Positions 13,233 through 56,615 of a DNA stretch of 64,000 bases are shown here, piece by piece. The translations under genes and the position numbers were made by a program. Position 1 is the first letter of the stretch, and every line of letters starts with the position of its first letter. Where the stretch lies: contig NC_092092.1 in assembly GCF_045679555.1 (NCBI RefSeq), positions 8,966,104 to 9,030,103 of the forward strand, given 5' to 3'. The notes below the pieces were generated by a model. It worked only from the letters and a program-made list of their open reading frames with translations, searched no databases and was not told the origin of the DNA. Origin of the DNA: Salvelinus alpinus. Taxonomy: Eukaryota > Chordata > Actinopteri > Salmoniformes > Salmonidae.

Positions 13233-16200
13233 GAGACTATATACAGGGGTGGTACCGGTACAGAGTCAATGTGGAGGCTATATACAGGTGGTACCGGTAC
13301 AGAGTCAATGTGGAGGCTATATACAGGGGTGGTACCGGTACAGAGTCAATGTGGAGACTATATACAGGTGGTACCAGTACAGAGTCAATGTGGAGACTAT
13401 ATACAGGTGGTACCGGTACAGAGTCAATGTGGAGACTATATACAGGTGGTACCGGTACAGAGTCAATGTGGAGGCTATATACAGGGGTGGTACCGGTACA
13501 GAGTCAATGTGGAGACTATATACAGGTGGTACCGGTACAGAGTCAATGTGGAGGCTATATACAGGGGTGGTACCGGTACAGAGTCAATGTGGAGACTATA
13601 TACAGGGGGGTACCGGTACAGAGTCAATGTGGAGGCTATATACAGGGGTGGTACCAGTACAGAGTCAATGTGGAGGCTATATACAGGGGTGGTACCGGTA
13701 CAGAGTCAATGTGGAGGCTATATACAGGTGGTACCGGTACAGAGTCAATGTGGAGGCTATATACAGGGGGTACCGGTACAGAGTCAATGTGGAGGCTATA
13801 TACAGGGGGTACTGGTACAGAGTCAATGTGGAGGCTATATACAGGGGTGGTACCGGTACAGAGTCAATGTGGAGGCTATATACAGGTGGTACCGGTACAG
13901 AGTCAATGTGGAGACTGTATACAGGGTGGTACCGGTACAGAGTCAATGTGGAGGCTATATACAGGTGGTACCGGTACAGAGTCAATGTGGAGGCTATATA
14001 CAGGGGGTACCGGTACAGAGTCAATGTGGAGGCTATATACAGGGGTGGTACCGGTACAGAGTCAATGTGGAGGCTATATACAGGTGGTACCGGTACAGAG
14101 TCAATGTGGAGGCTATATACAGGGGGTACCGATACAGAGTCAATGTGGAGGCTATATACAGGGGTGGTACCGGTACAGAGTCAATGTGGAGGCTATATAC
14201 AGGGGTGGTACCGGTACAGAGTCAATGTGGAGGCTATATACAGGGGGTACCGGTACAGAGTCAATGTGGAGGCTATATACAGGTGGTACCGGTACAGAGT
14301 CAATGTGGAGGCTATATACAGGGGTGGTACCGGTACAGAGTCAATGTGGAGGCTATATACAGGTGGTACCGGTACAGAGTCAATGTGGAGACTGTATACA
14401 GGGTGGTACCGGTACAGAGTCAATGTGGAGGCTATATACAGGTGGTACCGGTACAGAGTCAATGTGGAGGCTATATACAGGGGGTACCGGTACAGAGTCA
14501 ATGTGGAGGCTATATACAGGGGGTACCGGTACAGAGTCAATGTGGAGGCTATATACAGGGGTGGTACCGGTACAGAGTCAATGTGGAGGCTATATACAGG
14601 TGGTACCGGTACAGAGTCAATGTGGAGGCTATATACAGGGGTGGTACCGGTACAGAGTCAATGTGGAGGCTATATACAGGAGGTACCGGTACAGAGTCAA
14701 TGTGGAGGCTATATAAAGGGAGGTACCGGTACAGAGTCAATGTGGAGACTATATACAGGGGTGGTACCAGTACAGAGTCAATGTGGAGGCTATATACAGG
14801 AGGTACCGGTACAGAGTCAATGTGGAGGCTATATACAGGAGGTACCGGTACAGAGTCAATGTGGAGACTATATACAGGGAGGTACCGGTACAGAGTCAAT
14901 GTGGAGACTATATACAGGAGGTACCGGTACAGAGTCAATGTGGAGGCTATATACAGGGGTGGTACCGGTACAGAGTCAATGTGGAGGCTATATACAGGAG
15001 GTACCGGTACAGAGTCAATGTGGAGGCTATATACAGGGGTGGTACCGGTACAGAGTCAATGTGGAGGCTATATACAGGGGTGGTACCGGTACAGAGTCAA
15101 TGTGGAGGCTATATACAGGGGGTACCGGTACAGAGTCAATGTGGAGGCTATATACAGGGGTGGTACCGGTACAGAGTCAATGTGGAGGCTATATACAGGA
15201 GGTACCGGTACAGAGTCAATGTGGAGGCTATATACAGGGGGTACCGGTACAGAGTCAATGTGGAGACTATATACAGGGGGTACCGGTACAGAGTCAATGT
15301 GGAGACTATATACAGGGGGTACCGGTACAGAGTCAATGTGGAGGCTATATACAGGGGTGGTACCGGTACAGAGTCAATGTGGAGACTATATACAGGGGGT
15401 ACCGGTACAGAGTCAATGTGGAGGCTATATACAGGTGGTACCGGTACAGAGTCAATGTGGAGACTATATACAGGGTGGTACCGGTACAGAGTCAATGTGG
15501 AGGCTATATACAGGTGGTACCGGTACAGAGTCAATGTGGAGACTATATACAGGAGGTACCGGTACAGAGTCAATGTGGAGACTGTATACAGGGGTGGTAC
15601 CGGTACAGAGTCAATGTGGAGGCTATATACAGGAGGTACCGGTACAGAGTCAATGTGGAGACTATATACAGGGGGTACCGGTACAGAGTCAATGTGGAGG
15701 CTATATACAGGAGGTACCGGTACAGAGTCAATGTGGAGACTATATACAGGGGGTACCGGTACAGAGTCAATGTGGAGGCTATATACAGGGGTGGTACCGG
15801 TACAGAGTCAATGTGGAGGCTATATACAGGAGGTACCAGTACAGAGTCAATGTGGAGACTATATACAGGAGGTACCGGTACAGAGTCAATGTGGAGACTA
15901 TATACAGGAGGTACCAGTACAGAGTCAATGTGGAGACTATATACAGGAGGTACCGGTACAGAGTCAATGTGGAGACTGTATACAGGGGTGGTACCGGTAC
16001 AGAGTCAATGTGGAGGCTATATACAGGGGTGGTACCGGTACAGAGTCAATGTGGAGACTATATACAGGGGGTACCGGTACAGAGTCAATGTGGAGACTAT
16101 ATACAGGGGGTACCGGTACAGAGTCAATGTGGAGACTATATACAGGGGTGGTACCGGTACAGAGTCAATGTGGAGACTATATACAGGAGGTACCGGTACA

Positions 16201-19200
16201 GAGTCAATGTGGAGGCTATATACAGGGGTGGTACCGGTACAGAGTCAATGTGGAGGCTATATACAGGTGGTACCGGTACAGAGTCAATGTGGAGGCTATA
16301 TACAGGGGGTACCGGTACTGAGTCAATGTGGAGGCTATATACAGGGGTGGTACCGGTACAGAGTCAATGTGGAGGCTATATACAGGAGGTACCGGTACAG
16401 AGTCAATGTGGAGGCTATATACAGGGGTGGTACCGGTACAGAGTCAATGTGGAGACTGTATACAGGGGTGGTACCGGTACAGAGTCAATGTGGAGGCTAT
16501 ATACAGGGGTGGTACCGGTACAGAGTCAATGTGGAGACTATATACAGGGGTGGTACCAGTACAGAGTCAATGTGGAGGCTATATACAGGGGTGGTACCGG
16601 TACAGAGTCAATGTGGAGACTATATACAGGTGGTACCGGTACAGAGTCAATGTGGAGACTATATACAGGGGTGGTACCGGTACAGAGTCAATGTGGAGAC
16701 TATATACAGGTGGTACCGGTACAGAGTCAATGTGGAGGCTATATACAGGTGGTACCGGTACAGAGTCAATGTGGAGGCTATATACAGGGGTGGTACCGGT
16801 ACAGAGTCAATGTGGAGGCTATATACAGGGGTGGTACCGGTACAGAGTCAATGTGGAGGCTATATACAGGTGGTACCGGTACAGAGTCAATGTGGAGACT
16901 GTATACAGGGTGGTACCGGTACAGAGTCAATGTGGAGGCTATATACAGGGGGTACCGGTACAGAGTCAATGTGGAGGCTATATACAGGGGGTACCGGTAC
17001 AGAGTCAATGTGGAGGCTATATACAGGGGTGGTACCGGTACAGAGTCAATGTGGAGGCTATATACAGGTGGTACCGGTACAGAGTCAATGTGGAGGCTAT
17101 ATACAGGGGTGGTACCGGTACAGAGTCAATGTGGAGGCTATATACAGGAGGTACCGGTACAGAGTCAATGTGGAGGCTATATACAGGGAGGTACCGGTAC
17201 AGAGTCAATGTGGAGACTATATACAGGGGTGGTACCAGTACAGAGTCAATGTGGAGGCTATATACAGGAGGTACCGGTACAGAGTCAATGTGGAGGCTAT
17301 ATACAGGAGGTACCGGTACAGAGTCAATGTGGAGGCTATATACAGGTGGTACCAGTACAGAGTCAATGTGGAGACTATATACAGGGGTGGTACCGGTACA
17401 GAGTCAATGTGGAGGCTATATACAGGAGGTACCGGTACAGAGTCAATGTGGAGGCTATATACAGGGGTGGTACCGGTACAGAGTCAATGTGGAGGCTATA
17501 TACAGGAGGTACCGGTACAGAGTCAATGTGGAGGCTATATACAGGGGGTACCGGTACAGAGTCAATGTGGAGGCTATATACAGGGGGTACCGGTACAGAG
17601 TCAATGTGGAGGCTATATACAGGGGTGGTACCGGTACAGAGTCAATGTGGAGGCTATATACAGGTGGTACCGGTACAGAGTCAATGTGGAGGCTATATAC
17701 AGGGGTGGTACCGGTACAGAGTCAATGTGGAGGCTATATACAGGAGGTACCGGTACAGAGTCAATGTGGAGGCTATATACAGGGAGGTACCGGTACAGAG
17801 TCAATGTGGAGACTATATACAGGGGTGGTACCAGTACAGAGTCAATGTGGAGGCTATATACAGGAGGTACCGGTACAGAGTCAATGTGGAGGCTATATAC
17901 AGGAGGTACCGGTACAGAGTCAATGTGGAGGCTATATACAGGTGGTACCAGTACAGAGTCAATGTGGAGACTATATACAGGGGTGGTACCGGTACAGAGT
18001 CAATGTGGAGGCTATATACAGGAGGTACCGGTACAGAGTCAATGTGGAGGCTATATACAGGGGTGGTACCGGTACAGAGTCAATGTGGAGGCTATATACA
18101 GGAGGTACCGGTACAGAGTCAATGTGGAGGCTATATACAGGGGTGGTACCGGTACAGAGTCAATGTGGAGGCTATATACAGGGGTGGTACCGGTACAGAG
18201 TCAATGTGGAGGCTATATACAGGGGGTACCGGTACAGAGTCAATGTGGAGGCTATATACAGGGGTGGTACCGGTACAGAGTCAATGTGGAGGCTATATAC
18301 AGGAGGTACCGGTACAGAGTCAATGTGGAGGCTATATACAGGGGGTACCGGTACAGAGTCAATGTGGAGACTATATACAGGGGGTACCGGTACAGAGTCA
18401 ATGTGGAGACTATATACAGGGGGTACCGGTACAGAGTCAATGTGGAGGCTATATACAGGGGGTACCGGTACAGAGTCAATGTGGAGGCTATATACAGGTG
18501 GTACCGGTACAGAGTCAATGTGGAGGCTATATACAGGGGTGGTACCGGTACAGAGTCAATGTGGAGACTATATACAGGTGGTACCGGTACAGAGTCAATG
18601 TGGAGGCTATATACAGGTGGTACCAGTACAGAGTCAATGTGGAGGCTATATACAGGTGGTACCGGTACAGAGTCAATGTGGAGGCTATATACAGGTGGTA
18701 CCGGTACAGAGTCAATGTGGAGACTATATACAGGGGTGGTACCGGTACAGAGTCAATGTGGAGGCTATATACAGGGGGTACCAGTACAGAGTCAATGTGG
18801 AGACTATATACAGGAGGTACCAGTACAGAGTCAATGTGGAGGCTATATACAGGAGGTACCAGTACAGAGTCAATGTGGAGGCTATATACAGGAGGTACCA
18901 GTACAGAGTCAATGTGGAGGCTATATACAGGTGGTACCGGTACAGAGTCAATGTGGAGGCTATATACAGGGGGTACCGGTACAGAGTCAATGTGGAGGCT
19001 ATATACAGGGGTGGTACCGGTACAGAGTCAATGTGGAGGCTATATACAGGAGGTACCAGTACAGAGTCAATGTGGAGACTATATACAGGGGGTACCAGTA
19101 CAGAGTCAATGTGGAGGCTATATACAGGAGGTACCAGTACAGAGTCAATGTGGAGACTATATACAGGAGGTACCGGTACAGAGTCAATGTGGAGACTGTA

Positions 19201-21696
19201 TACAGGGGTGGTACCGGTACAGAGTCAATGTGGAGGCTATATACAGGGTGGTACCGGTACAGAGTCAATGTGGAGACTATATACAGGAGGTACCAGTACA
19301 GAGTCAATGTGGAGGCTATATACAGGGTGGTACCGGTACAGAGTCAATGTGGAGACTATATACAGGGGTGGTACCGGTACAGAGTCAATGTGGAGGCTAT
19401 ATACAGGAGGTACCGGTACAGAGTCAATGTGGAGGCTATATACAGGGGTGGTACCGGTACAGAGTCAATGTGGAGGCTATATACAGGTGGTACCGGTACA
19501 GAGTCAATGTGGAGGCTATATACAGGGGTGGTACCGGTACAGAGTCAATGTGGAGGCTATATACAGGGGGGTACCGGTACAGAGTCAATGTGGAGGCTAT
19601 ATACAGGGGGGTACCAGTACAGAGTCAATGTGGAGGCTATATACAGGTGGTACCGGTACAGAGTCAATGTGGAGGCTATATACAGGGGTGGTACCGGTAC
19701 AGAGTCAATGTGGAGGCTATATACAGGAGGTACCGGTACAGAGTCAATGTGGAGGCTATATACAGGGGTGGTACCGGTACAGAGTCAATGTGGAGGCTAT
19801 ATACAGGGTGGTACCGGTACAGAGTCAATGTGGAGGCTATATACAGGGGTGGTACCGGTACAGAGTCAATGTGGAGACTATATACAGGAGGTACCGGTAC
19901 AGAGTCAATGTGGAGGCTATATACAGGGGGTACCGGTACAGAGTCAATGTGGAGGCTATATACAGGGGGTACCGGTACAGAGTCAATGTGGAGGCTATAT
20001 ACAGGGGTGGTACCGGTACAGAGTCAATGTGGAGGCTATATACAGGAGGTACCAGTACAGAGTCAATGTGGAGACTATATACAGGAGGTACCGGTACAGA
20101 GTCAATGTGGAGACTGTATACAGGGGTGGTACCGGTACAGAGTCAATGTGGAGGCTATATACAGGGGTGGTACCGGTACAGAGTCAATGTGGAGGCTATA
20201 TACAGGGGTGGTACCGGTACAGAGTCAATGTGGAGGCTATATACAGGAGGTACCGGTACAGAGTCAATGTGGAGACTATATACAGGAGGTACCGGTACAG
20301 AGTCAATGTGGAGGCTATATACAGGGGTGGTACCGGTACAGAGTCAATGTGGAGGCTATATACAGGTGGTACCGGTACAGAGTCAATGTGGAGGCTATAT
20401 ACAGGTGGTACCGGTACAGAGTCAATGTGGAGGCTATATACAGGTGGTACCGGTACAGAGTCAATGTGGAGGCTATATACAGGTGGTACCGGTACAGAGT
20501 CAATGTGGAGGCTATATACAGGGGTGGTACCGGTACAGAGTCAATGTGGAGACTATATACAGGGAGGTACCGGTACAGAGTCAATGTGGAGGCTATATAC
20601 AGGGGTGGTACTGGTACAGAGTCAATGTGGAGGCTATATACAGGGGTGGTACCGGTACAGAGTCAATGTGGAGGCTATATACAGGGGTGGTACCGGTACA
20701 GAGTCAATGTGGAGGCTATATACAGGGGGTACCGGTACAGAGTCAATGTGGAGGCTATATACAGGAGGTACCGGTACAGAGTCAATGTGGAGACTGTATA
20801 CAGGGGTGGTACCGGTACAGAGTCAATGTGGAGGCTATATACAGGGGTGGTACCGGTACAGAGTCAATGTGGAGGCTATATACAGGGGTGGTACCGGTAC
20901 AGAGTCAATGTGGAGGCTATATACAGGAGGTACCGGTACAGAGTCAATGTGGAGACTATATACAGGAGGTACCGGTACAGAGTCAATGTGGAGGCTATAT
21001 ACAGGGGTGGTACCGGTACAGAGTCAATGTGGAGGCTATATACAGGTGGTACCGGTACAGAGTCAATGTGGAGGCTATATACAGGTGGTACCGGTACAGA
21101 GTCAATGTGGAGGCTATATACAGGTGGTACCGGTACAGAGTCAATGTGGAGGCTATATACAGGGGTGGTACCGGTACAGAGTCAATGTGGAGACTATATA
21201 CAGGGAGGTACCGGTACAGAGTCAATGTGGAGGCTATATACAGGGGTGGTACCGGTACAGAGTCAATGTGGAGGCTATATACAGGGGGTACCGGTACAGA
21301 GTCAATGTGGAGGCTATATACAGGAGGTACCGGTACAGAGTCAATGTGGAGGTTATATACAGGTGGTACCGGTACAGAGTCAATGTGGAGACTGTATACA
21401 GGGTGGTACCGGTACAGAGTCAATGTGGAGGCTATATACAGGTGGTACCGGTACAGAGTCAATGTGGAGGCTATATACAGGGGGTACCGGTACAGAGTCA
21501 ATGTGGAGGCTATATACAGGGGTGGTACCGGTACAGAGTCAATGTGGAGGCTATATACAGGGGGTACCGGTACAGAGTCAATGTGGAGGCTATATACAGG
21601 AGGTACCGGTACAGAGTCAATGTGGAGACTGTATACAGGGGTGGTACCGGTACAGAGTCAATGTGGAGGTTATATACAGGGGGTACCGGTACAGAG
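13233..21696. repeat. giant 39-41 bp minisatellite, about 213 copies (8.5 kb)
   Basis: Core GTACCGGTACAGAGTCAATG continues TGGAGGCTATATACAGG (37 bp) and is followed by a variable linker (TG, GG, AG, GTG, GAG, GGG or GGTG), giving 39, 40 or 41 bp units. Each unit carries the 10-bp palindrome GTACCGGTAC with a single CpG. Sequence variants are GGAGACTATA, GGAGACTGTA, GGAGGTTATA and ACCAGT for ACCGGT. No unit contains a stop codon in any of the three forward frames, so huge open frames arise by chance; none is supported as a gene. Higher-order duplications are visible, for example 17,017-17,230 repeated at 17,613-17,826, and about 20,101-20,450 repeated at 20,781-21,130. Confidence 0.97.
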
Positions 21697-21757
21697 TGTG
21701 CGGGGGCACCAGTGTCGAGGTAATTGAGGTAATATGTACATGTAGGTAGAATTATTA
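21697..21757 (-). mobile_element. LINE 3'-UTR fragment on the far side of the array
   Basis: GTGCGGGGGCACCAGTGTCG followed by AGGTAATATGTACATGTAGG is the reverse complement of the left-flank LINE fragment. It lies just upstream, in LINE sense, of the 39-bp segment that expanded. Confidence 0.78.
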
Positions 21758-31990: not shown

Positions 31991-34900
31991 ATGCAGCCCA
32001 TTATACACAGAAGAGATGCCGAAGTGTGGCATCAAACGAGAAGCCTGTTTTACAAGAATCTACTCATCAAATGGAGGACAAAAAAACAAAGCCTACAGGT
32101 TGGTAATTTGCAGCACCTTGTGCTTTGTCTGATTTTTAACAACATTAGGTCCGTATTAAGCCTAGTCTATGACAAAAAATAACTTTCAATTGAGATTCCC
32201 CATTGAGTTAGATGTTTTGTTGTTGTCCAGGACTAGCTTTAATATGCGTCCGGGACCTTTATGTTTTGCGTCTGAGAAAAGTAGCTAGCTGTATAGCTAA
32301 CTAGCCAACTCATCTGTATCTAACCAGTGGTGCCCGCATATTTTCCTGCTGACAGGAGAACGCTAATACGAAAGTATTGTACACACCACCCTTTGGGCTA
32401 TCCCCATTAGTACTATTAGTGATAGTTCGGTAATAGTACTACAGCCTGCTGAATGCTGCTTTGTTTGTGGCTATAGTCTACCTGCACCACTCAATCAGGT
32501 CCACCCTACTCCCCTAGGGCCATGATTACACTGTCATGGTCAGTCACATGTACTTTCTTGTGCATGGTTATTACTAGGAAATCATTTATCTTGTTTTATC
32601 TACCTCTAGAGCCGTTTGTCATTAGCATTTTATCCTACCCCACCTGCCAACAAGCTTCTGTCAACTTATTGTGACTAGTGAAAATATGACTGCCTTCTGC
32701 TTTGAAGCTCAGCAAGTCTCCACGATTCTTTCTTTCTTTGATTTAGATTTTTTTTTTATCCTGCTTTGTATGGCCATGCATTTTTCATTTTGATTAAGTT
32801 GATCTAATGCATTATTAATGTATGTGTCTCTTCATATTTTCCTCCAGGGGTAGCTAGTGTTTGAGAGGGGCCTCCTGGAAGTTAAAGTAGCTGTTTAAAG
32901 CAGCTAGTGGTGAATAACTTGGGTTGTTTTCCAAATGGCACCCTGTTTCCTTTGTAGTGCACAACTTTTTACCAAAACCCCATTAATCATGGTCAAAGGC
33001 TATTTTGGGAATAGGGTGCCATTTGGGACGAACCTAGCACTTAGAGCTCCTACTGTACTTGTATTGTCAAAATGAAGTGGTCGATAGGCTTGTATCCATA
33101 TTGTCATACCTTCATACAGACCTTGTGCCATCCCAGGACATTCGCTAATACCGGGGCACTGAACACAAGGGGCTAGCTAATTAAAAAAAACTTCAAAATA
33201 GATCGTTTCAATGCTTTTGCCTGTATTGAAAAACCATCCCGTGGCTTTTTCCAAATTCCCCGGTATACAGTATAGACTAGGCTTTTTAATCCTGCCCGCC
33301 GGTCATCATCCGTCTTGGGCTGGCTGCAATACTTTTAGATGTTATTAATACGCAACCAAATAAATGAAGCATGTTATGTAGTGTTCCAGGTCTCTGTGCC
33401 AGGCCTGTCAGGGAGCAGAGCATCAATGCCAGTTTAGCTCTAATAATTATCCTTTGACGAAGATGTGTTTATCAAACGTGTCCTTTTTTGGGGGGGATAT
33501 AACTGTTCATTACAGATTTATAAACTAACGATAAGCAAGTAATTCACTGCTCTTAAATTACTTAATACCCCCTTCACAGGGTGTGCTTTTTACTCCCAAG
33601 AAACCTTGTTTTAATATGGACCTGATAGAGGTTAAGGCCCTGTGAAAGACTAGCAAAGTGTCCAAGGGGTACATCAAGCTGCCTCACGCTACAGAAACAG
33701 GATATAGGCTCCTGCTCCTGTGAGCCATTCTGGCTTGCAACAGTCAAGGCTCATGCCAGGCTACTACTTACCTAATAGGCATATGACTAGGTATGTCATA
33801 GGAGCGGCTAACACATATTTTTTTAATCCTTTGCTGTTTGAAAGATACGCCAACCTCCAGCCGAGGGCTTGACATGCCAAACACTCTAATTTAGGGTTTC
33901 AATTCATCTCGCTGCTCCCCAAGGTCAGTCTGTCATAAATCAGGGTTGTTTAATAACACTGCTGGTTTGTCGCCGACCTTGATGGGAGGGAGAATTTGAG
34001 ACCTTGGACAAGCTGCAGACAGTGGGCTTGTTCGACATTGCAGCCGACAGCGTAAGCGACTACCGACTGACTCATTTACAAATCACCTCTCATCATAAGT
34101 AACTACTCAGTCATTACTGAATTGTAGATCAGTCAGCCAATCACAATGCATTACAGATTTGATCCGCTCAAATATGGTCATCTAGTGGTTATGTGGTAAT
34201 GGGGGAGGAGTAGTGAGTTTGGGGTGGAGATGTTATTAGGATGTTTACGGTAGTGTCACTGTGCTGTTTATTAGAATGACGTGGCAATATCTATTAGAAT
34301 GACGTGGCGATATCTATTAGAATGACGTGGCGATATCTATTAGAATGACGTGGCGATATCTATTAGAATGACGTGGCGATATCTATTAGAATGACGTGGC
34401 GATATCTATTAGAATGACGTGGCGATATCTATTAGAATGACGTGGCGATATCTATTAGAATGACGTGGCGATATCTATTAGAATGACGTGGCGATATCTA
34501 TTAGAATGACGTGGCGATATCTATTAGAATGACGTGGCGATATCTATTAGAATGACGTGGCGATATCTATTAGAATGACGTGGCGATATCTATTAGAATG
34601 ACGTGGCGATATCTATTAGAATGACGTGGCGATATCTATTAGAATGACGTGGCGATATCTATTAGAATGACGTGGCGATATCTATTAGAATGACGTGGCG
34701 ATATCTATTAGAATGACGTGGCGATATCTATTAGAATGACGTGGCGATATCTATTAGAATGACGTGGCGATATCTATTAGAATGACGTGGCGATATCTAT
34801 TAGAATGACGTGGCGATATCTATTAGAATGACGTGGCGATATCTATTAGAATGACGTGGCGATATCTATTAGAATGACGTGGCGATATCTATTAGAATGA

Positions 34901-36933
34901 CGTGGCGATATCTAGTAGAATGACGTGGCGATATCTATTAGAATGACGTGGCGATATCTATTAGAATGACGTGGCGATATCTATTAGAATGACGTGGCGA
35001 TATCTATTAGAATGACGTGGCGATATCTATTAGAATGACGTGGCGATATCTATTAGAATATCCCCACGTTTTAATTTGACCTCAGTCTTGTGAATTTCCG
35101 TCTAGGCCGGGTTACTGTAAAGTGCTGATATTAAAGGGCTTTATACATTTTTTGATTTAATAGATTCCCTTTATCCCTTTGCTTGATTCATTTAGTGAGT
35201 GGTTGGTTGATTGGTTGCCCTTCCAGGAGTTGATTTGATTTATTGATTGATTGATTTGATTGGCGCCTTTTCTGCTCCAGGAGTTGATCCTGCTGCTGCT
35301 CTGCCTGCTGTTTCTGATCAGCATCCTGAACCCCCATGTCTACTATGGAGGTATCAGTACTATGGAGCTGGACACGGTACACTACTCCGTCCTCAACGTC
35401 CTGGGATACACCCCCGTCAACAATGCCACCAATCACATCATGGAGCAAATGGCCCAGGAAATGAGTAAGTAGCAGGATGGACATGAAGTGTGAAAAATGA
35501 TCATATAAGAGATATTGCATTGGATTTGTGGCATAAATGTGAAAAAGTTAGCATTTGGAGACCGTGACCAGGTAAACAAAAACCTAAGGCATGGATTGCA
35601 CCCTCCCTGTCTCTTTATGGATTTAAAAACATTGCATTGCTCTGGGTTAAGTATTGACTGGAGTCTGGAGTGAAATTCGCTGTGGCCGACTCTGACTGAC
35701 TCCGTTTGGGTATGCAGACCCCACTGCTGCCCCTCATGAAGAGTTCAGATCTTTATTGCAGCCCCCAACAGAGTTGCCCATCCCTGGTTTACTGTCTTGG
35801 TGGCTTTACATGTGTATGCGTCCCAACGGCACCCTATTCCCTATATAGTGCACTACGTTTCAACAGTGCACTAACGGAAATAGTGTTCCATTTGGGTTGC
35901 AGACGGTGTCTTTACGTCTGCCTTGATTCTTGTGGTTTCTTCACTGTAGACATGCCGGGCCGTCGGGAGAGTTTCTCTAGTGAAGAGGATCTGGAGAATG
36001 CCAGTCTGTATGAGCCATCAGGCTACATCGGGGTGGTCTTCATAGGAAGCATACCCACCTCTTACAGACTGCGCTTCCCTCACCACCGGCTGCCCATACC
36101 CACCTCTTACAGACTGCGCTTCCCTCACCACCGGCTGCCCATACCCACCTCTTACAGACTGCGCTTCCCTCACCACCGGCTGCCCATACCCACCTCTTAC
36201 AGACTGCGCTTCCCTCACCACCGGCTGCCCATACCCACCTCTTACAGACTGCGCTTCCCTCACCACCGGCTGCCCATACCCACCTCTTACAGACTGCGCT
36301 TCCCTCACCACCGGCTGCCCATACCCACCTCTTACAGACTGCGCTTCCCTCACCACCGGCTGCCCATACCCACCTCTTACAGACTGCGCTTCCCTCACCA
36401 CCGGCTGCCCATACCCACCTCTTACAGACTGCGCTTCCCTCACGACCGGCTGCCCATACCCACCTCTTACAGACTGCGCTTCCCTCACCACCGGCTGCCC
36501 ATACCCACCTCTTACAGACTGCGCTTCCCTCACCACCGGCTGCCCATACCCACCTCTTACAGACTGCGCTTCCCTCACCACCGGCTGCCCATACCCACCT
36601 CTTACAGACTGCGCTTCCCTCACGACCGGCTGCCCATACCCACCTCTTACAGACTGCGCTTCCCTCACCACCGGCTGCCCATACCCACCTCTTACAGACT
36701 GCGCTTCCCTCACCACCGGCTGCCCATACCCACCTCTTACGGACTGCGCTTCCCTCACCACCGGCTGCCCATACCCACCTCTTACAGACTGCGCTTCCCT
36801 CACCACCGGCTGCCCATACCCACCTCTTACAGACTGCGCTTCCCTCACGACCGGCTGCCCATACCCACCTCTTACAGACTGCGCTTCCCTCACCACCGGC
36901 TGCCCATGCCCAGCGACTACACTCAGAACATCG
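31991..36933 (+). CDS. abca5: ABCA-family transporter, abca5-like; first three coding exons only
   Basis: Three exons join in phase: 31,991-32,098 (108 nt, phase 0), 35,281-35,464 (184 nt, ends A|GTAAGT) and 35,950-36,933 (984 nt, ends ATCG|GTAAGA). All introns are GT-AG. Exon 1 encodes a cytoplasmic start (EVWHQTRSLFYKNLLIKWRT) that matches the VWRQTR...KNYLIK.RTKK start of ABCA5. Exon 2 encodes the first membrane segment (LILLLLCLLFLISIL) and LGYTPV, also seen in ABCA5. Exon 3 enters the large luminal loop (GYIGVVF). ABCA5 is a full-length lipid transporter of lysosomal and endosomal membranes with two nucleotide-binding domains. None of the later exons was recognised in the following 27 kb, so the gene is truncated here or resumes beyond. 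Exon 3 contains a 19-copy, 45-bp in-frame repeat. The start is the first ATG in frame with the homology. ABCA6/8/9/10-type identity is less likely. Confidence 0.78.
32931..33030. mobile_element. palindromic salmonid MITE-like repeat in abca5 intron 1
   Basis: CCAAATGGCACCCTGTTTCC at the left and GGAATAGGGTGCCATTTGGG at the right are well-preserved inverted arms. Confidence 0.85.
33040..34260. other. abca5 intron 1, no other feature seen
   Basis: About 1.2 kb of intronic sequence between the palindromic repeat and the 23-bp array. No exon with matching phase was recognised. Confidence 0.5.
34268..35059. repeat. 23-bp minisatellite in abca5 intron 1, about 34 copies
   Basis: Unit TCTATTAGAATGACGTGGCG plus ATA. 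The array is strikingly homogeneous: only the first unit (GTGGCAATAT) and one unit near 34,913 (CTAGTAGAATG) differ. Every unit carries TGACGTGG, matching the ATF6/UPRE consensus TGACGTG(G/A). It ends about 220 bp before exon 2. Confidence 0.97.
35819..35902. mobile_element. palindromic salmonid MITE-like repeat in abca5 intron 2
   Basis: CGTCCCAACGGCACCCTATT at the left and ATAGTGTTCCATTTGGGTTG at the right. It lies about 48 bp before the exon 3 acceptor. Confidence 0.8.
36054..36908 (+). repeat. abca5: 45-bp coding minisatellite in abca5 exon 3, exactly 19 copies
   Basis: Unit CCCACCTCTTACAGACTGCG continues CTTCCCTCACCACCGGCTGC then CCATA. It is 45 bp (15 codons) and reads PTSYRLRFPHHRLPI. 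The 855 bp keep frame throughout. Only a few variants occur: CACGAC (HD for HH) in units near 36,441, 36,621 and 36,846, TCTTACGG (Gly for Arg) near 36,738, and the last unit ends ATG. Related transporters have one such segment at this position (pattern SYELRF...), so the array adds about 270 residues to the first luminal loop. Confidence 0.93.
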
Positions 36934-37256
36934 GTAAGAGATTATTTAAATATTGGTGTAGGCGAAATAAAGATCTTGTTTTTTGAGCAAGATTTGTGTC
37001 CCTTCCTTATGTCCATTGGTGAGGGAGTAATATTACCCTGCTCTCTGTACAATCAGGTTATCCTCAATACTATAGAATCCTTCCTCTGTGGAAGAATTGG
37101 ATGTTTGATCACTGCAAGATGATTATAATCTCCAATATGTGAGTTATAAAATAACAGGCTCTCCCGCCCTCTGTCTCCTTCGCCCTCTGTCTCTCTGTCT
37201 GCACTACAAAATTTACACAAACGTTGTGTGTTGTCTAGTCTATATAAATTCTGCTG

Positions 37257-37262
37257 TTTATT
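37257..37262 (-). terminator. poly(A) signal of protease gene A
   Basis: AATAAA on the minus strand, about 640 bp after the stop codon. The same signal is conserved in copy B. Confidence 0.55.
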
Positions 37263-37902
37263 GGAAATAAAAAAAGAACTAGACAATTCATTCATCATTT
37301 TAATTTCCAGATGCAACAGTAGATCAAGTCTTTACATTTATATAAATCATTTCCTGATCTGTCTCATAACATGAAATACTGACCTGCATAGACTTGATAA
37401 TAGACTACAAAGAGAGAATACTTGTGAACTGATTACAGTGGCAGTTTCATATTTCAATCCAGTCAGAATAAATAAACAATTAGATGAGATAAACCTTCTG
37501 GTTTTAGTAGACTGTTGCAGGCAGCGTTAGACCAGGCAGTGTTCGTGGACAAATCCTGCACATAAACCAAATAATCTGTTGAGGCATAGGATAACGAGCA
37601 GCAGTAGTTACAATGTTTATGTTTTCCTCACTGATAATTTGGACCTATCAGGATTGGGCGAAGGCGGTGCTTAAATTTCACTGCTTTGGCTGAGAGTTTC
37701 CTTTTGCAAAGGATGGAGACATCGCAAACCCAGACTCTCAATTTGAAACACATGGACCCAGAAATAAATCATGCAGCTGACCAAATTACGCAAGATTTTA
37801 GTTCTGGGTTAACAAAGATTAAACTCACCAAAAAATTCTAGAGCAAACAGAGCACATTTAGACCCTATTGCCAGAGGTTTACATGAAGGTGACTCTTCAG
37901 CG

Positions 37903-40900
37903 TCACCTGGCTTGACCGAGAGACAGAAGGAGAGAGAGGAGAGACAAGAAGAGCAGGACCAGGGATGAGTGGGCCAGAGTTACCCCACTGGTAGTTGCAC
38001 TGACAGTTGTGCTGTTGGCAGTGTTGTTGTTATTGACGGGGGTTCTGGCTGTGACGGGTGAAGGGAACGTGCCCACAGTGGTCTGAAGGAAGCTCTGGAA
38101 GCGAGCGGCTTTGGTGAAGACCTGGATGTTGGAGGAGCGAGGACTCTGGCTCCATCGTGTTTTGCTGGAGCTGGTCTTGTTGCTGCTGTTGACAGTCAAC
38201 ACAGCAGCTTGGTACCATGCATCACCCTGCTTACACATGAGAGGACCACCCCCTTCACCCTGTGGGGAGAGAGAAGAATGAACACACGGGGGGAGAGGTC
38301 AGCATTGTCATGTCAGATAGACAGCCAGACTGGTTGCCTACCAAGCTACTGGAAGATCATTATGAAACTTGGGACTTAGGTGGATCTAAATGTCCTACCA
38401 TCAGGCAGGCTCTGCTGACGTCAATACTGGAGATACCAAAGTCAAATAGATCACATCCCAACAGTTGCAGAGCTATCCTCAATAGCTAAACAGACATAAT
38501 GCAACCATCCTTGCTGTACACCAGTTGACACTTCTGAGTCGACATTTGAAACCCGTTATTGTGCGTTTGCTTTGTTTGTCGGACCCATCTGTACCTGTCG
38601 AAGGTCCAAGGCAGCAGTGCAGATGTTATCAGAGGAGCCAGAGCTCCCACAATCCACCACAGAGGTCTGGTACTGCTCCAAGTTCTGTTCAGCTAAGGAA
38701 CGACACAGAATAGAGAAATAGAGGACGAAAATCACAAGTTGACCAAACAGAAAGAACACATTTATTTTATCAGGTAAGTTGACTGAGAACACATTCTCAT
38801 CTACAGCAATGCCCTGGGGAATAGTTACAGGGGAGAGAGGATGAATGAGCCAATTGGAAGCTGGGGATGATTAGGTGGCCATGATGGTCAGATTGCGAAT
38901 TTAGTGAGGACATCAGGGTTAACAACCCTACTATTACGATAGGTGCCATGGGATCTTTAGTGACCACAGAGAGTCAGGACACTTGTTTAAAGTCCCGCCC
39001 TACACACGGCAATGTCCCGAATCACTGCCCTGGGGCATTGGGATATTATTTTCTTATGACCAGAGGAAAGAGTGCCTCCTACTGGCCCTCCAACACCAAT
39101 TCCAGCAGCATCTGGTCTCCCATCCAGGACCAACCCTGCTTAGTTTCAGAGGTGTAACAGTATAACTTTATGTCGTCCCCTCGCCCCGACACGGGCGCGA
39201 ACCAGGGACCCTCTGCACACATCAACAACTGACACCCACGAAGCGTCGTTACCCATCGCTCCACAAAAGCCGCGGCCCTTGCAGAGCAAGGGGCAACACT
39301 ACATCTAGGTTTCAGAGCAAGTGACGTAACTGATTGAAACGCTACTAGCGCGTACCCGCTAACTAGCTAGCCATTTCACATCCGTTACACTCACCCCCCT
39401 TTCAACCTCCTCCTTTTCCGCAGCAACCAGTGATCCGGGTCAACAGCATCAATGTAACAGTATAACTTTAAACCGTCCCCTCACCCCGACACGGGCGCGA
39501 ACCAGGGACCCTCTGCACACATCAACAACAGTCACCCACGAAGCGTCGTTACCCATCGCTCCACAAAAGCCACGGCCCTTGCAGAGCAAGGGGCAACACT
39601 ACATCTAGGTTTCAGAGCAAGTGACGTAACTGATTGAAACGCTACTAGCGCGTACCCGCTAACTAGCTAGCCATTTCACATCCGTTACAGAGGCATGCCA
39701 GAAGTGTTAGTCTGTTCCAGTATTACACACTGACTCACCTCCACCCTGGCCCCTGCCCCAGCCAGCCACCCAGCACTGAGTCCCTATGCTGAAGGTGCTG
39801 CTTCCCTGGTCCACACAGATGGGCTGGATGTAGTCAGACAACGTGGGTTGGCTGGCCAGTCTGAGGATTGCCACGTTGTTGGCCGTCAAGTTGCTCATGG
39901 TGATGTTGATGACTTTAAGGGTTACCTCGTTGGGGTTGGAGCCGTTCTGCTTCAGACGACCCATGATCACGGTCCACTGAGAGGCGTCGGACTGACTGGG
40001 AGGTGGGAATAGTGAAGTTGGGGAACTTTAGCTTGGCATTACCGATACCTTCTATGTAACAGGTCCTTGTTTCAACTTGAGCACCAAGACACCAAGTGAT
40101 GGAGATCTGACCATATGCATCTGACCAACTCACCCGTTTACATACAAGTGGAGTGTGTTACCTGGAGAAGCACCCAGCATCGCTCATGACATAGTCCTCT
40201 GCCACCATTGTGCCCCCGCAGACGTGTGTTCCGTTTGTCTGTAGACTGGCTATCCAGGGCCAGGATCCCCCTGAGGCCAAGCCCCCACCAGTAAGGGAGT
40301 TCAAAGAGGCACTGCCGCACACCACGGCTGCAGAAACAGGGAGAGAAGCACTACAGAAATCAGGACTGACTTTTGGCTGAGTGTAGATTTAAAGAGAGGG
40401 ATAAACACTAACGTTTGGATGTGGTCAAATGGAGAGTTACAGATACGTTGGCTATAGCTACAACAGGAGTAACAGATGGGTGTGGCTACAAGAGGAGGCA
40501 GCAATTTGTGTGTTTCACAGAGGGAAATAAATCCACTTACGTTCAGGAGTGGTTTTAGGGACAGTTGTGGTGGTGGCTGGGGTTGGAAGACCAGTACAGG
40601 AGACACTGAGGTCAGAATCAGTCCCACTGGAGGAGAAGGTGACGTAGCCTGGCTGGTCACTGGTGATCTGGGTGTTGATCCAGGTCTGGTACTGAGACAC
40701 CCTTGCGTACACTCCTGGGAGATTTGCCTGGGCACACCCGTTGCCGAAACTCACAACGCCAGACTGGATCCAGCGAATACCCTGTTTGCTCACCATTGGA
40801 CCTCCTGAGTCCCCCTATGCATTGACAGATTTACAGTCACTGAGATTAGATTTTCTTATGAAACATAATGGGTCAGTTTTTCAGACACCAATTAAAACAA

Positions 40901-43900
40901 GTTTTGGACTAAAAAGCACTTTTAATGGATAATCTCTATTTAAAGTGCTTTTCAATTTAGGACTAGGCTAGGTATAATCTGGGTCTGAGAAACCAGACAC
41001 AGATTATGAATGTGTCATTAGCCCACATTGTAATAAACAAAGAAGATAACCAAGAGATTTTACCTGACAGGAATCCTTTCCTCCTGCTGATAGACCAGCA
41101 CAGATCATGTTATCAGTGATAGAACCAACTCCATTGTTACAGTTACACTGCCTGTTCCCCACTACTGGCACATCCACTTCCTGTAGGGTCTGTGGTGAGG
41201 GCAGGGACACTGAGGAGAGACAACAGTTTAGCCTGCTCCCAGACAGGCTAAACAACTTTTTTGCCCGCTTTGAGGACAATACAGTGCCACTGACACGGCC
41301 CCCTACCAAAACCTGCGGGCTCTCCTTCACTGCAGCCGAGGTGAGTAAAACATTTAAACGTGTTAACCCTCGCAAGGCTGCAGGCCCAGACGGCATTCCC
41401 AGCCGCGTCCTCAGAGCATGCGCAGACCAGCTGGCTGGTGTGTTTACGGACATATTCAATCAATCCTTATCCCAGTCTGCTGTTCCCACATGCTTCAAGA
41501 GGGCCACCATTGTTCCTGTTCCCAAGAAAGCTAAGGTAACTGAGCTAAACGACTACCGCCCCGTAGCACTCACTTCCGTCATCATGAAGTGCTTTGAGAG
41601 ACTAGTCAAGGACCATATCACCTCCACCCTACCGGACACCCTAGACCCACTCCAATTTGCTTACCGACCCAATAGGTCCACAGACGACGCAATCGCAACC
41701 ACACTGCACACTGCCCTAACCCATCTGGACAAGAGGAATACCCATGTGAGAATGCTGTTCATCGATTACAGCTCAGCATTTAACACCATAGTACCCTCCA
41801 AACTCGTCATCAAGCTCGAGACCCTGGGTCTCGACCCCGCCCTGTGCAACTGGGTCCTGGACTTCCTGACGGGCCGCCCCCAGGTGGTGAGGGTAGGTAA
41901 CAACATCTCCACCCCGCTGATCCTCAACACTGGGGCCCCACAAGGGTGCGTTCTGAGCCCTCTCCTGTACTCCCTGTTCACCCACGACTGCGTGGCCATG
42001 CACGCCTCCAACTCAATCATCAAGTTTGCGGATGACACTACAGTGGTAGGCTTGATCACCAACAACGACGAGACGGCCTACAGGGAGGAGGTGAGGGCCC
42101 TCGGAGTGTGGTGTCAGGAAAATAACCTCATACTCAACGTCAACAAAACAAAGGAGATGATTGTGGACTTCAGGAAACAGCAGAGGGAGCACCCCCCTAT
42201 CCACATCGACGGGTCAGTAGTGGAGAAGGTGGAAAGTTTTAAGTTCCTCGGTGTTCACATCACGGACAAACTGAATTGGTCCACCCACACAGACAGCGTT
42301 GTGAAGAAGGCGCAGCAGCGCCTCTTCAACCTCAGGAGGCTGAAGAAATTCGGCTTGTCACCAAAAGCACTCACAAACTTCTACAGATGCACAATCGAGA
42401 GCATCCTGTCGGGCTGTATCACCGCCTGGTACGGCAACTGCTCCGCCCACAACCGTAAGGCTCTCCAGAGGGTAGTGAGGTCTGCAGAACGCATCACCAG
42501 GGGCAAACTACCTGCCCTCCAGGACACCTACACCACCCGATGTCACAGGAAGGCCATAAAGATCATCAAGGACAACAACCACCCAAGCCACTGCCTGTTC
42601 ACCCCGCTATCATCCAGAAGGCGAGGTCAGTACAGGTGCATCAAAGCAGGGACCGAGAGACTGAAAAACAGCTTCTATCTCAAGGCCATCAGACTGTTAA
42701 ACAGCCACCACTAACATTTAGCGGCCGCTGCCAACATACTGACTCAACTCCAGCCACTTTAAAAATGGGAATTGATGGAAATTATGTAAAAATGTACCAC
42801 TAGCCACTTAAGCAATGCCACTTAATACAATGTTTACATACCCTACATTACCCATCTCATATGTATATATACTGTACTCTATATCATCTACTGCATCTTG
42901 CCATCTTTATGCAATACATGTACCACTAGCCACTTTAAACTATGCCACTTTATGTTTACATACCCTACAGTACTCATCTCATATGTATATACCGTACTCT
43001 ATACCATCTACTGCATCTGCCATGCCGTTCTGTACCACCACTCATTCATATATCTTTATGTACATATTCTTTATCCCTTTACACTTGTGTGTGTGTGTAA
43101 GGTAGTAGTGTGGAATTGTTAGGTTAGATTACTGTTGGTTATTACTGCATTGTCGGAACTAGAAGCACAAGCATTTCGCTACACTCGCATTAACATCTGC
43201 TAACCATGTGTATGTGACTAATAAAATTTGATTTGATTTGATTTGAGGTATTCCTCAACATACATAATACCTATCAGAATTATGATCCATCATCAGCAGC
43301 ACTTAAATCAAGCTACAGCACTCACCTTCACTGTGGATGCTGCCCCAGCCGGTGACCCAGCTAGTAGCCCCAGCATGGAAGGAGCTGCCTGGTGCAGCTA
43401 GGCAGACTGGCCGAATGAAGTTTGTAAAAGTCACAGTGGAGGAGAGCTTCAGCAGACACATGTCATTGTCACTGGTACTTCTGGTGTAGTTGGGGTGGCA
43501 GATAATCTGAGTGACTGTCCGGGTCACCTCGTTGGGGTTGGAGCCCTCCTGGCTCAGACGACCCACGTAGACTACCACATTTAATGTACTGGTACTGCGA
43601 GAGTAAATATATAAAAATGTAACAGTATTGTTTTTAAAAGAGTGGAACTGTTAAGTTTGGTGTTCGGATTAAATGTTTCCCACAATCCTACAAATCCTTA
43701 CCTGGAAAAGCAGTGAGCAGCAGTCAATACCCACTCTTTGTTGATGAGGGATCCCCCACAAAAATGGCTGCCTAATCTGTGAAGACTGGCCTGCCATGGC
43801 CAACTCCCTGCAGGAGCATCCTGACCCCCCACGATCCTAGTGTTAAGAGGAGGGGTTCCGCACACTAACAGAGATAGAGAATGATGGGTTATTTGGAAGG

Positions 43901-46900
43901 TTTTTGTTGAATAGGTCACATTGGTGTAACAGTGCATTATAAAAGGTTTTAATCATGTTTAGAGAATATCTGTAAGTGGTGAAAAGGACTTACCATTCAG
44001 CTGTGAATGAGAGCCTGAAATACAAGACAGAAAGAAAAGGAAATTCCTTCATCCTTAACAAAGGTGTCATCCCTTACTCTCTGTATCCAAACCCTGGCAT
44101 TTTCACTGGGTACACTTGGTTCTATCTCGAACCTAAAAGGATTTCTTAGCCTGTCCCCATGGCAACACTCTTTGAAGAACCCTTTTGGGTTCCAGGTAGA
44201 ACCCTTTCCACAGACAGTTCTATATGGTACCCAAGAGGGTTCTCTGTGGAACCTAAAAGGGTTCTTCAAAGGGTCTGCCATGGGGACAGCCAAAGAACCC
44301 TTTTGGAACTCTTGTTTTCTAAGACTGTACAAACTGTCCCATACTGATCAGAGTGAACATACCGACTGACGTCAGCATAAGTACCAATTGTTATAACACA
44401 CTGATTGTTAAACCTCTTAAGGATCATACCCAAATCTAACTGCCTGTAGCTCAGGACCTGAAGATGGCGGCGGAAGAAATGGCAGCCGTTTTACAGGCGA
44501 CAAACCAACTGTGCTATTATGTGGTTTTTTTCTCATATTATTTGTTAATTATTTTGTACATCATGTTTCTCCCACCGTATCTTACGGCAAAAAAGAGCTT
44601 CTGGATGTCAGGACAGCGATCCCTCACCTCGGATTAGACTAAGATTTTTTCTTCAACAAGCAGGACGCACAGGATGTACTTCAGACGCTCGACAAGGCCA
44701 AAATCCCTGTCATAGCCTGACTAACCAGTAACCCCACACATTGGCAACCCGGACTATTTGCATTGTGTCCCGCCAACCCTCTTTTACGCTGCTGCTACTC
44801 TCTGTTTATCATCTATGCATAGTCACTTTAACTGTACCTACATGTACATAATACCTCAATTAGCCCAACTAACCGGTTCCCCCACACATTGACTCTGTAG
44901 CTGTACCACCTGTATATGGCCTCGCTACTGTTATTTTCACTGTCATTTTACAGCTTTTTATTTTATTTCTTTACTTATCTATTGTTTACCAAATACCCAT
45001 TTTGTATTAAAAATTACACTGCTTGTTAGGACTTGTAAGTAAATATTTCACGTTGTACTCAACCTGTTGTATTCGGCGCACGTGACAAATAAACTTTGAT
45101 TTGAAGCAAGGATATGCATATTCTTGATACCATTTGAAAGCTAACATTGAGGTTTGTGGGAATCTAGGAGAATATAACACATTAGATCTGGTAAAAGATA
45201 ATACAAAGAAAATAACATGCATTTTTTTATCATCTTTGAAATGCAAGAGAAAGGCCACAATGTATTATTGCAGTTTTGGCACAATTTTGATTTTGGCCAC
45301 TAGATGGCAGCAGTGTATGTGCACAATGTTCTACACTGATTCAATGAACCATTGCATTACTGTTTCAAAATGTTGTATCAAGACTGCCTAAATGTGCCTA
45401 ATTGGTTTATTGATACGTTTTCAAGTACATAACTGTGCACTCTCCTCAAACAATAGCATGGTATTCTGTCCATATCAGATATGTCCGTGTCCTGGGAAAT
45501 TTTCTTGTTACTTACAACGTCATGCTAATCACATTAGCGCACGTTAGCTCAACCGTCCCTTGGGGGGGACACCAATCCCGTAGAGGTTTTCTTACCGTAT
45601 GTTCCCAGTCAAAACAGTTTGCACATATACTATGACGTTTTTGTTTTGGTCTTAGGCAGTTTTTTTCCGGCTGTTCGTGCACACCAAAAAATGATTGAGG
45701 CAAGTCGAAGTTCGGTAGTTGAAGTCTACGCCCTTTTGTCGGTGACTGGTCAAACGTACTACTCCTAGTAGGAGTGGAAACATCAACCCACTGGGCACAG
45801 ACGTCAGTTCAATGTCTAGTTTGGATTTACTTTGGTTGAATTGTCAACTAACGTGAATACAACGTGAAATCAACAAAAACATCACCATGTCATTGGATTA
45901 AGGTTAAAAGTTGGGTGAAAGAAAATATGATGTTTACTTTTTTACATTGATCAACATCACTTTGACTGTCTGGGTTGAAATGACGTGAAAACAATGTTGA
46001 TTCAACCAGTTTTTGCCCAGTGGGAAGTGTTTGCTGTCATTTAATGAGAAATGACTAGTTTTCATGCACATTTTTTCACATGAGAAATACTGCACCAAAC
46101 ATCTTAGCTAGATGTTGAACTGCTTGGCTAAGACCTCCTCGGCTCCAATTTACTCAACACTTTTGAAAACGCATAGGCCTACCTGTAAACTATAATCCAG
46201 AATCTAGATGTATCAGTGTGACTTGTTACCTTTCTTATTTCCTCAATGTCATCAATTAGTATTTCTGCTTCACACAATACTTTTGAAAACACATACCTGT
46301 CCACCTGCACACATGTGGCTTATTAACTTGAAGAACTTGAAAGTTGAGTCTGCTAGGTATGCTTTCCCATCACCAAGTACTTATAGGACAACAGACACAA
46401 GAAACATATCTTCCTACCCAGTGACTCATACATTTCTCAGAAATCGCTCAAACGTTTCCTGGTTGCAAGAATTCTTATAGTTCACCTTATTTCAGTTTAT
46501 TTGACAAAACAAGCAGTCATTGTGTACAGAATCATTGCACAATCTAAACCGGTGTGAATAACTTTTCCATAAGCCAAAATATTGTATTTTCAGCGGTTTG
46601 AAGTTGGTGTATAAACCCGAAAGTAAAAGACTCAAAAACGCTTCTTAGACTTACTTTCAAAGAGAATGAGATATCTGTAACTCACATTTCTATGTGAATT
46701 TGGGTGTGTCGCCCAAAAAGTTACATATTGCAGTGTTAAATCGATTTGAGTTCAGTTTATTCATTCAGTCCAAATGTCTTTATATACAAACTGAAATAAA
46801 CTTAGTAGCGAACTTCTTTAAACCAGGTGAGTATAAATGAAGAACGCTGTAGGATAAAGACAGCGATAAATTGAGAATTGTACTACTTACATTTTGGTGA

Positions 46901-49033: not shown

Positions 49034-49660
49034 TCAATTTGTCACATACAAGGATTTTGTATGGTTGTTGAAATGTGCAGAACATGAATCAGCTATGCCT
49101 GCCCCATATGTAAGGCCCTCTTTGAGTTGTTGCTGGTGACACTTTACTTTCTTGACTGTGTCATGGGACCTGCACCTACGCTTGACACACTCCATTGAAG
49201 CAGCATCAGCTCTCACAACTCCTCTCTGACTGCTCCAGTCTCACCAAAGTGCTGTCAATCCACAATTTGTTCATCACATTTGTTATAGCAGTGGCTCCAT
49301 CATTGAACGTGGCTACTGCCATACTGGCTGCTCCGTCAATGCGGCTTTTGCCCATGAAGACAGTTTTGGGGCATCGCGACCATATTACAGAGTTCAGACA
49401 CTCATTTGCATTCTGTGTTCCTCCGTGATACATTCTTTTGAGGACGTTATCATTTGACATCCTCAAATATACAGATACCATTTTCTCTAATAGATACCTC
49501 TATTAAAAAAATGTATGGCCTCCAAGGTTCTGGTGACAGGGTGGATTTTCACAATTCTGGCTCGCTGGTACCAGCACCAATGCACACACCTATCCCGTAG
49601 TTGGAATTGAATCCTCTCTTGTGCCATCGAAGGATACATTAGTGTCTATGATGACATCAT
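49034..49660 (-). pseudogene. Mutator-like (MULE) transposase remnant
   Basis: On the minus strand, 49,655-49,622 reads TNVSFDGT, the start of the Mutator-like catalytic core. The frame then shifts and soon stops. Separate frames follow: HGGTQNANECLNSVIWSRCP (near 49,420-49,360) and EGLTYGAG (near 49,115), which are C-terminal hallmarks. The middle of the domain is deleted and the pieces are in different frames. The acidic repeat array at 49,655-50,492 sits in frame directly before the VSFDGT motif. Confidence 0.65.
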
Positions 49661-50492
49661 CATCCTCCTTCAGCGTCTCTGCTATGTCTGGGTCTATATC
49701 TGTATCATCATCCTCCTTCAGTAACTCTGCTATGTCTGGGTCTATATCTGTATCCTCATCCTCCTTCAGTAACTCTGCTATGTCTGGGTCTATATCTGTA
49801 TCCTCCTTCAGTAACTCTGCTATGTCTGGGTCCATATCTGTACCCTCATCCTCCTTCAGCGTCTCTGCTATGTCTGGGTCTATATCTGTATCCTCATCCT
49901 CCTTCAGTAACTCTGCTATGTCTGGGTCTATATCTGTATCATCATCCTCCTTCAGTAACTCTGCTATGTCTGGGTCTATATCTGTATCATCATCCTCCTT
50001 CAGCGTCTCTGCTATGTCTGGGTCTATATCTGTATCCTCATCCTCCTTCAGTAACTCTGCTATGTCTGGGTCTATATCTGTATCCTCAACCTCCTTCAGT
50101 AACTCTGCTATGTCTGGGTCTATATCTGTACCCTCATCCTCCTTCAGCGTCTCTGCTATGTCTGGGTCTATATCTGTATCCTCATCCTCCTTCAGTAACT
50201 CTGCTATGTCTGGGTCTATATCTGTATCCTCATCCTCCTTCAGTAACTCTGCTATGTCTGGGTCTATATCTGTACCCTCATCCTCCTTCAGTAACTCTGC
50301 TATGTCTGGGTCTATATCTGTATCCTCATCCTCCTTCAGTAACTCTGCTATGTCTGGGTCTATATCTGTATCCTCATCCTCCTTCAGTAACTCTGCTATG
50401 TCTGGGTCTATATCTGTACCCTCATCCTCCTTCAGTAACTCTGCTATGTCTGGGTCTATATCTGTATCCTCATCCTCCTTCAGTAACTCTGT
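49655..50492 (-). repeat. 48-bp minisatellite, about 17 copies, encoding an acidic repeat on the minus strand
   Basis: Unit (plus strand) TCCTCCTTCAGTAACTCTGC continues TATGTCTGGGTCTATATCTG then TATCCTCA. One unit near 49,800 is 42 bp. On the minus strand it reads EDTDIDPDIAELLKED without stops and leads in frame into the transposase motif at 49,650. The opposite strand is also open and Ser-rich, but that frame has no homology. Confidence 0.9.
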
Positions 50493-55790: not shown

Positions 55791-56026
55791 ATATTGCTCT
55801 TCTATTGTTAAAATGATTCTGGATTTTTGTTTATATAAAGGATATACTGTAATGTAACTCTCAATACGGAATTAAAGATAATATTTTCAAGTTGAATATA
55901 ATCTATGACCTATAGTAATCACTCAGGTTGTACAACTGATATAAAACACGTTTGACACAATCGTTTGGCTGCACTACAACATTTACACAAATGTTGTGTG
56001 GTGTCTAGTCTATATAAATTCTGCTG

Positions 56027-56032
56027 TTTATT
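56027..56032 (-). terminator. poly(A) signal of protease gene B
   Basis: AATAAA on the minus strand, conserved with copy A, about 585 bp after the stop codon. Confidence 0.55.
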
Positions 56033-56615
56033 GGAAATAAAAAGATAACTAGACAATTCATCATTTTAATTTCCAGATGAAACAGTAGATCAAGTCATTA
56101 CATTTAAATAAATAATTTCCTGATCTGTCTCATAACATGAAATACTGACCTGCATAGACTTGATAATAGACTACAAAGAGAGAATACTTGTGAACTGATT
56201 ACAGTGGCAGTTTCATATTTCAATCCAGTCAGAATAAATAAACAATTAGATGAGATAAACCTTCTGCATAGGATAACGAGCAGCAGTAGTTACAATGTTT
56301 ATGTTTTCCTCACTGATAATTTGGACGTATCAGGATTGGGCGAAGGTGGTGCTTAAATTTCACTGCTTTGGCTGAGAGTTTCCTGTTGCAAAGGATGGAG
56401 ACATCGCAAACCCAGACTCTCAATTTGAAACACATGGACCCAGAAATAAATCACGCAGCTGACCAAATTACGCAAGATTTTAGTTCTGGGATAACCAAGA
56501 TTAAACTCACCAAAAAATTCTAAGCTGCAATATATAAAGCGCAAGGGTACATACTTCAAACAGAGCACATTTAGACCCTATTGCCAGAGGTTTACATGAA
56601 GGTGACTCCTCAGCG

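Follow-up and report, generated by a model that had tools for sequence, protein, structure and literature searches.

A reading frame that stays open through 19 copies of a 45-bp repeat in an ABCA5-like exon of Salvelinus alpinus raises the question of whether the repeat has rebuilt a transporter or sits in a gene that has ceased to be one. In an assembly of 2.37 Gb, the exon lies on contig C7, in a stretch of 64,000 nucleotides, hereafter the window; unless a contig is named, positions refer to the window. A tblastn search with human ABCA5, a query on which the gene identification rests, matched the N-terminal part of the protein to three exons in order on C7 (33–62% identity; E values of 7e-5, 0.03, and 2e-4), in agreement with the ABCA5-like assignment made in a preliminary description of the window. 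The features are as follows, with a second ABCA5 copy on contig C3 serving for alignment.

31991–32098, plus strand: coding portion of ABCA5-like exon 1, 36 codons beginning with the ATG (tblastn, human ABCA5 residues 6–34, 62% identity; boundaries set by eye).
35281–35464, plus strand: ABCA5-like exon 2 (tblastn, 33% identity, E 0.034 when taken alone; aligned with C3).
35950–36933, plus strand: ABCA5-like exon 3 containing the array, with consensus acceptor and donor (tblastn and sequence reading).
36051–36905, plus strand: 45-bp array of 19 in-frame units (Tandem Repeats Finder and unit-by-unit reading).

The exon 2 match falls in order between exons 1 and 3. All three exons of the C7 copy have an open frame and good splice sites, and those of exon 3 (AG before 35950 and GT after 36933) are intact, as had been described. 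A Pfam search with exons 1–3 carrying one unit found no family at E values up to 1. The corresponding PDB search returned six chains at E values up to 10, the best being ABCA1 at 0.42, and adds no support to the assignment. One aligned ABCA1 stretch (0.0 bits) would place the repeated segment after the GIVF motif of the lumenal domain; this putative place in the ABCA fold is only a lead.

Tandem Repeats Finder described the array in the window as 19.2 copies of 45 bp at 36050–36912, with 98% matches and 0% indels, and the in-frame reading gave 19 units of 45 bp at 36051–36905. The preliminary description had the same number of units, but its coordinates were shifted by 3 bases. The unit sequence IPTSYRLRFPHHRLP is identical in 15 of the 19 units, and each of the remaining four carries one substitution: CAC to GAC (His to Asp) in units 9, 13, and 18, and AGA to GGA (Arg to Gly) in unit 16. 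Both of these distinct substitutions are nonsynonymous. The units are arranged head to tail in several copies, and their length falls within the 10–100 bp of a minisatellite. Recent expansion or homogenization had been proposed from the near-identity of the units, and the homogeneity seen here probably does reflect a recent expansion; by analogy, the copy number would likely differ between individuals. When a 70-base probe from the array was searched against the whole assembly (928 contigs), 19 of the 20 matches fell inside the array, and the sole match outside was a single unit on the minus strand of C3 (C3:67999402–67999454; 83% identity over 53 bases). The literature searched, in part under the name ABCA5 and mostly in journals outside subscription, yielded no report of the 45-bp array.

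It had also been pointed out that the array keeps the frame and contains no stop codon. Both statements are true, but they carry little weight. As is to be expected from repetition of one short unit that lacks stops, five of the six frames run across the array region uninterrupted, and the lack of stops was accordingly rejected as a sign of coding function. A unit length divisible by three was likewise rejected as a sign of selection, because half of the arrays listed for 174 kb of C7 (17 of 34) show it. When the exon 3 frame including the array was searched, Pfam returned only a sub-threshold match to a 14-residue leader-peptide model, which we took as chance. The structure predicted for this frame from the single sequence, with no alignment, was uninformative (mean pLDDT of 38.9, one short predicted strand per unit).

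On the minus strand of C3, matches to ABCA5 exons follow one another in order from 68016228 to 67915804, a stretch of about 100 kb. In the tblastn search, these matches span residues 6 to 1638 of human ABCA5, with the first to the last exons in order. The copy was read except for 5,000 N at C3:67960404–67965403 and about 21 kb, and we call it apparently whole on the basis of the exon matches. Exon 3 of this copy has one unit. The earlier statement that homologous transporters carry one such segment thus holds for C3, the only homolog that was readable. Intron 3 on C3 is 314 bp long, and exon 4 follows at once. The C7 and C3 gene stretches align at 67–88%, and from their sequences the two copies appear to be an old duplicate pair, which probably arose in the salmonid whole-genome duplication. 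Comparison of 155 aligned codons of exons 1–3 gave a dN of 0.116 and a dS of 0.310 (ratio 0.375), the dS showing an old duplicate only and neither its origin nor its date. Counting against the reading of the C7 copy as a relic, the ratio, together with the open frame and the good splice sites, points to constraint on exons 1–3 during some or all of their history. Nine private amino-acid changes were counted on C7 and four on C3, with 18 unresolved (human ABCA5 as the outgroup, gapped columns dropped), and this comparison revealed no significant relaxation on C7 (p = 0.27).

The alignment of intron 3 between the two copies bears directly on the fate of the C7 copy, and involves two further features.

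36934–37195, plus strand: remaining intron 3, homologous to C3 intron 3 (314 bp) up to the polypyrimidine tract (C7/C3 alignment).
37196–44000, minus strand: beginning of a low-copy repeat that contains coding pieces of the trypsin family; the repeated DNA continues to the right, and the right end is approximate (repeat comparison; Pfam Trypsin in three of the four minus-strand pieces tested).

The intron of C7 aligns with that of C3 into the polypyrimidine tract, to about 37195, and ends before exon 4. The gene copy on C7 is cut 262 bp past exon 3, and no exon 4 is present there. The low-copy repeat starts exactly at 37196 and has the same left edge at four other places on C7 (55966, 71761, 121623, and 150902). 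It is at this left edge that the ABCA5 copy breaks off.

The exons that should follow were sought in 174 kb of C7, including about 117 kb downstream of exon 3. There, tblastn with human ABCA5 gave no match at E < 0.5 from residue 152 to residue 1416, and tblastn with middle peptides derived from C3 found no middle exon. One weak match of the C3 peptides (E 0.30) was rejected; it is the C-terminal exon, which was matched because it resembles the first ATP-binding domain. We also searched the whole assembly with a 916-residue exon query, which was made without human residues about 480–634 and 1009–1512 and whose last about 107 residues were derived from C7. Among the 54 matches listed (50 of 87 candidates scored), C7 near the array matches only residues 1–124 and 811–916. 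The listed matches outside C3 and the array locus, on C1, C4, C5, C6, C7 at 53.5 Mb, C8, C11, C15, C19, C20, C23, C31, and C39 (31–64% identity), are taken, from their sequences, as other ABCA members.

The C-terminal exons are present on C7 at window-scale positions 97172–93858, on the minus strand; they are inverted and lie 57–60 kb from exon 3. Compared with C3, the last coding exon lacks 2 bp, which shifts the frame for the final residues. This deletion alone would not be sufficient to disable the protein, and the remaining C-terminal exon matches look open. Because the middle exons were not found and the C-terminal exons are inverted at that distance, no reading unit with two transmembrane and two ATP-binding domains was recognized for this copy in the 174 kb of C7. 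A counterpart that is apparently whole (C3) and a copy with several lesions (break, missing exons, inversion, and 2-bp deletion) are what is expected of a pseudogene, although the loss of the middle exons is based on one assembly, amid low-copy repeats mostly 93–98% alike, where assembly errors are plausible. The preliminary description had predicted that the array adds about 270 residues to the lumenal loop of a transporter. This prediction of a transporter with a longer loop is not supported: the gene copy is cut 262 bp after exon 3, no middle exon was found, and the last exons lie inverted 57–60 kb away with a 2-bp deletion. That description was made from 64 kb alone and without database searches, and the end of the gene was not visible in it.

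We consider, with a probability of about 0.8, that the 19 units represent minisatellite expansion in exon 3 of an ABCA5 duplicate that is now truncated and that is probably the partner of the C3 copy from the whole-genome duplication. One 45-bp segment may have been duplicated by slippage or unequal exchange, and the near-repeat CATACCCA / CATGCCCA at the two ends of the segment perhaps helped this first duplication. The duplicated segment would then have expanded and been homogenized. If the break preceded the expansion, selection would no longer have removed growth of the array. A loss of constraint following the break would be the most economical account of how the array came to be tolerated. 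Exon-overlapping arrays are found also in the apparently whole C3 copy, in which 6.8 copies of 59 bp lie over an exon end, so such arrays can sit in an apparently whole gene too. No function of the repeat is needed to explain the array, which has the appearance of a commonplace unstable repeat within the remains of a gene, and not of a remodelled transporter. An open in-frame repeat within a recognizable exon was weak evidence for a remodelled protein, because the 64-kb view hid the failure of the gene to continue. The two copies, with their different exon-overlapping arrays, offer a case in which the growth of minisatellites could be dated relative to the breakage of a duplicate.

An error of assembly in this region of low-copy repeats, which would have produced either the number of repeats or the truncated and inverted state of the gene, is an unlikely explanation. 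The direct and inverted repeats that fill the region, mostly 93–98% alike, and the coincidence of the break with a repeat edge would favor such an error. However, the break lies between 262 bp of recognizable intron 3 and a repeat edge that is seen at four other places, and the 2-bp deletion is independent of the join. In addition, the matches listed (50 of 87 candidates scored) did not include another set of the middle exons queried, and the array units show both private and shared substitutions, like real arrays.

Expression of the stump as a putative short membrane-anchored repeat protein, encoded by exons 1–3 and reading into intron 3 up to a stop at 36984–36986, seems very unlikely, and the same low probability is given to its having been kept after truncation as a new gene for a putative small single-pass membrane protein. 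The frame does run without a stop from exon 3 to 36986, an AATAAA at 36966–36971 lies beside that stop, and exons 1–3 bear a signal of constraint. This constraint may nevertheless predate the break, AATAAA is a common hexamer, and the single-sequence structure prediction (mean pLDDT of 38.9) is uninformative. If the stump were retained in this way, its lumenal part would be a variable ladder of basic 15-residue repeats, all descended from a single segment of the lumenal domain of ABCA proteins. A functional ABCA5 transporter whose first lumenal loop holds a basic insertion of 270 residues is also very unlikely: it agrees with the open frame and splice sites of exons 1–3 and with the dN/dS ratio of 0.375, but no exon 4 or later exon was found on the plus strand in the 117 kb downstream, no middle exon was found, and the C-terminal exons lie in inverted orientation with the 2-bp deletion.

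The surroundings of the truncated duplicate are rich in similar repeats. Arrays with a unit of at least 15 bp and at least five copies numbered 34 in 174 kb of C7, one being a TG run, and three in 90 kb of C3, after overlapping rows had been merged. The C3 stretch, which includes 5,000 N, is the sole density control and an imperfect one, since an array of 42 copies of 44 bp at the C3 gene end falls outside the census. The C7 region is filled with direct and inverted low-copy repeats, mostly 93–98% alike. In paralogous repeats, 48-bp arrays have 17.5, 7.5, and 12.0 copies, and 25-bp arrays have 22.2, 15.2, 14.2, and 17.2 copies. These unequal copy numbers indicate that arrays in the C7 region change length. 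Another array was found within the C7 gene copy itself.

34269–35059, plus strand: second minisatellite, 23 bp × 34.4, lying in the first intron of the C7 copy (Tandem Repeats Finder and C3 comparison).

One diverged unit of this 23-bp array is present at the C3 counterpart. The exonic and the intronic array both grew within a 2.7-kb stretch of the C7 copy, and neither grew at the same sites of C3.

Gene pairs from the salmonid whole-genome duplication in which one partner is pseudogenized are a known type. The present pair resembles them in that one copy is apparently whole (C3) and the other is truncated and rearranged (C7); for this pair, the dS of 0.31 says only that the duplicate is old.

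Tandem repeats within exons are widespread. A tandem repeat of some kind is reported to occur in 17,800 coding regions of 7,372 genes in Atlantic cod (PMC5241972), and human minisatellite VNTRs overlap 3,512 exons (PMC8096271). Such exonic VNTRs share with the 45-bp array the tandem units within an exon, the high identity, and the fast change in number; they differ in that the host of the 45-bp array appears to be a truncated duplicate and that the array is known from one assembly. An expanded tandem repeat is also described in human ABCA7, another gene of the ABCA subfamily, with reported effects on splicing and expression (PMC5954066). That VNTR is intronic and belongs to a working gene, whereas the 45-bp array is exonic and lies in a relic.

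Several other repeats were noted. The 59-bp array of the C3 ABCA5 copy (C3:67941931–67942330, minus strand, 6.8 copies, in the census) has a donor-like CAG/GT in each of seven units. Six units amount to 354 bp, and in one frame no stop occurs before the last donor. As 354 is divisible by three, use of either the first or the last predicted donor would keep the frame. The array of 42 copies of 44 bp lies at C3:67916673–67918600, in the 3′ part of C3 ABCA5, and reaches the edge of the 3-kb piece examined; similar repeats occur on C7 at window-scale positions 94774–95802. The 17.5-copy 48-bp array at 49656–50491 contains, on the minus strand, an open frame of 324 residues with DIDPDIAELLKEDEDT units, whose single Pfam match was sub-threshold and was taken as chance. 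A 39-bp array of about 213 copies occupies 8.5 kb at 13233–21697.

Trypsin-family pieces lie on the minus strand in two blocks of low-copy repeats, 37196–44000 and 55966–60500, and every piece tested with Pfam came from the first block. More direct and inverted copies of these protease-bearing repeats continue to about 153 kb. Within the first block, a reverse-transcriptase stretch (Pfam RVT_1, E 4.9e-34) is located at 41214–43245. It was not seen by eye at the corresponding place in the second block, and an inverted copy of it with 99.4% identity is located at 1626–3636.
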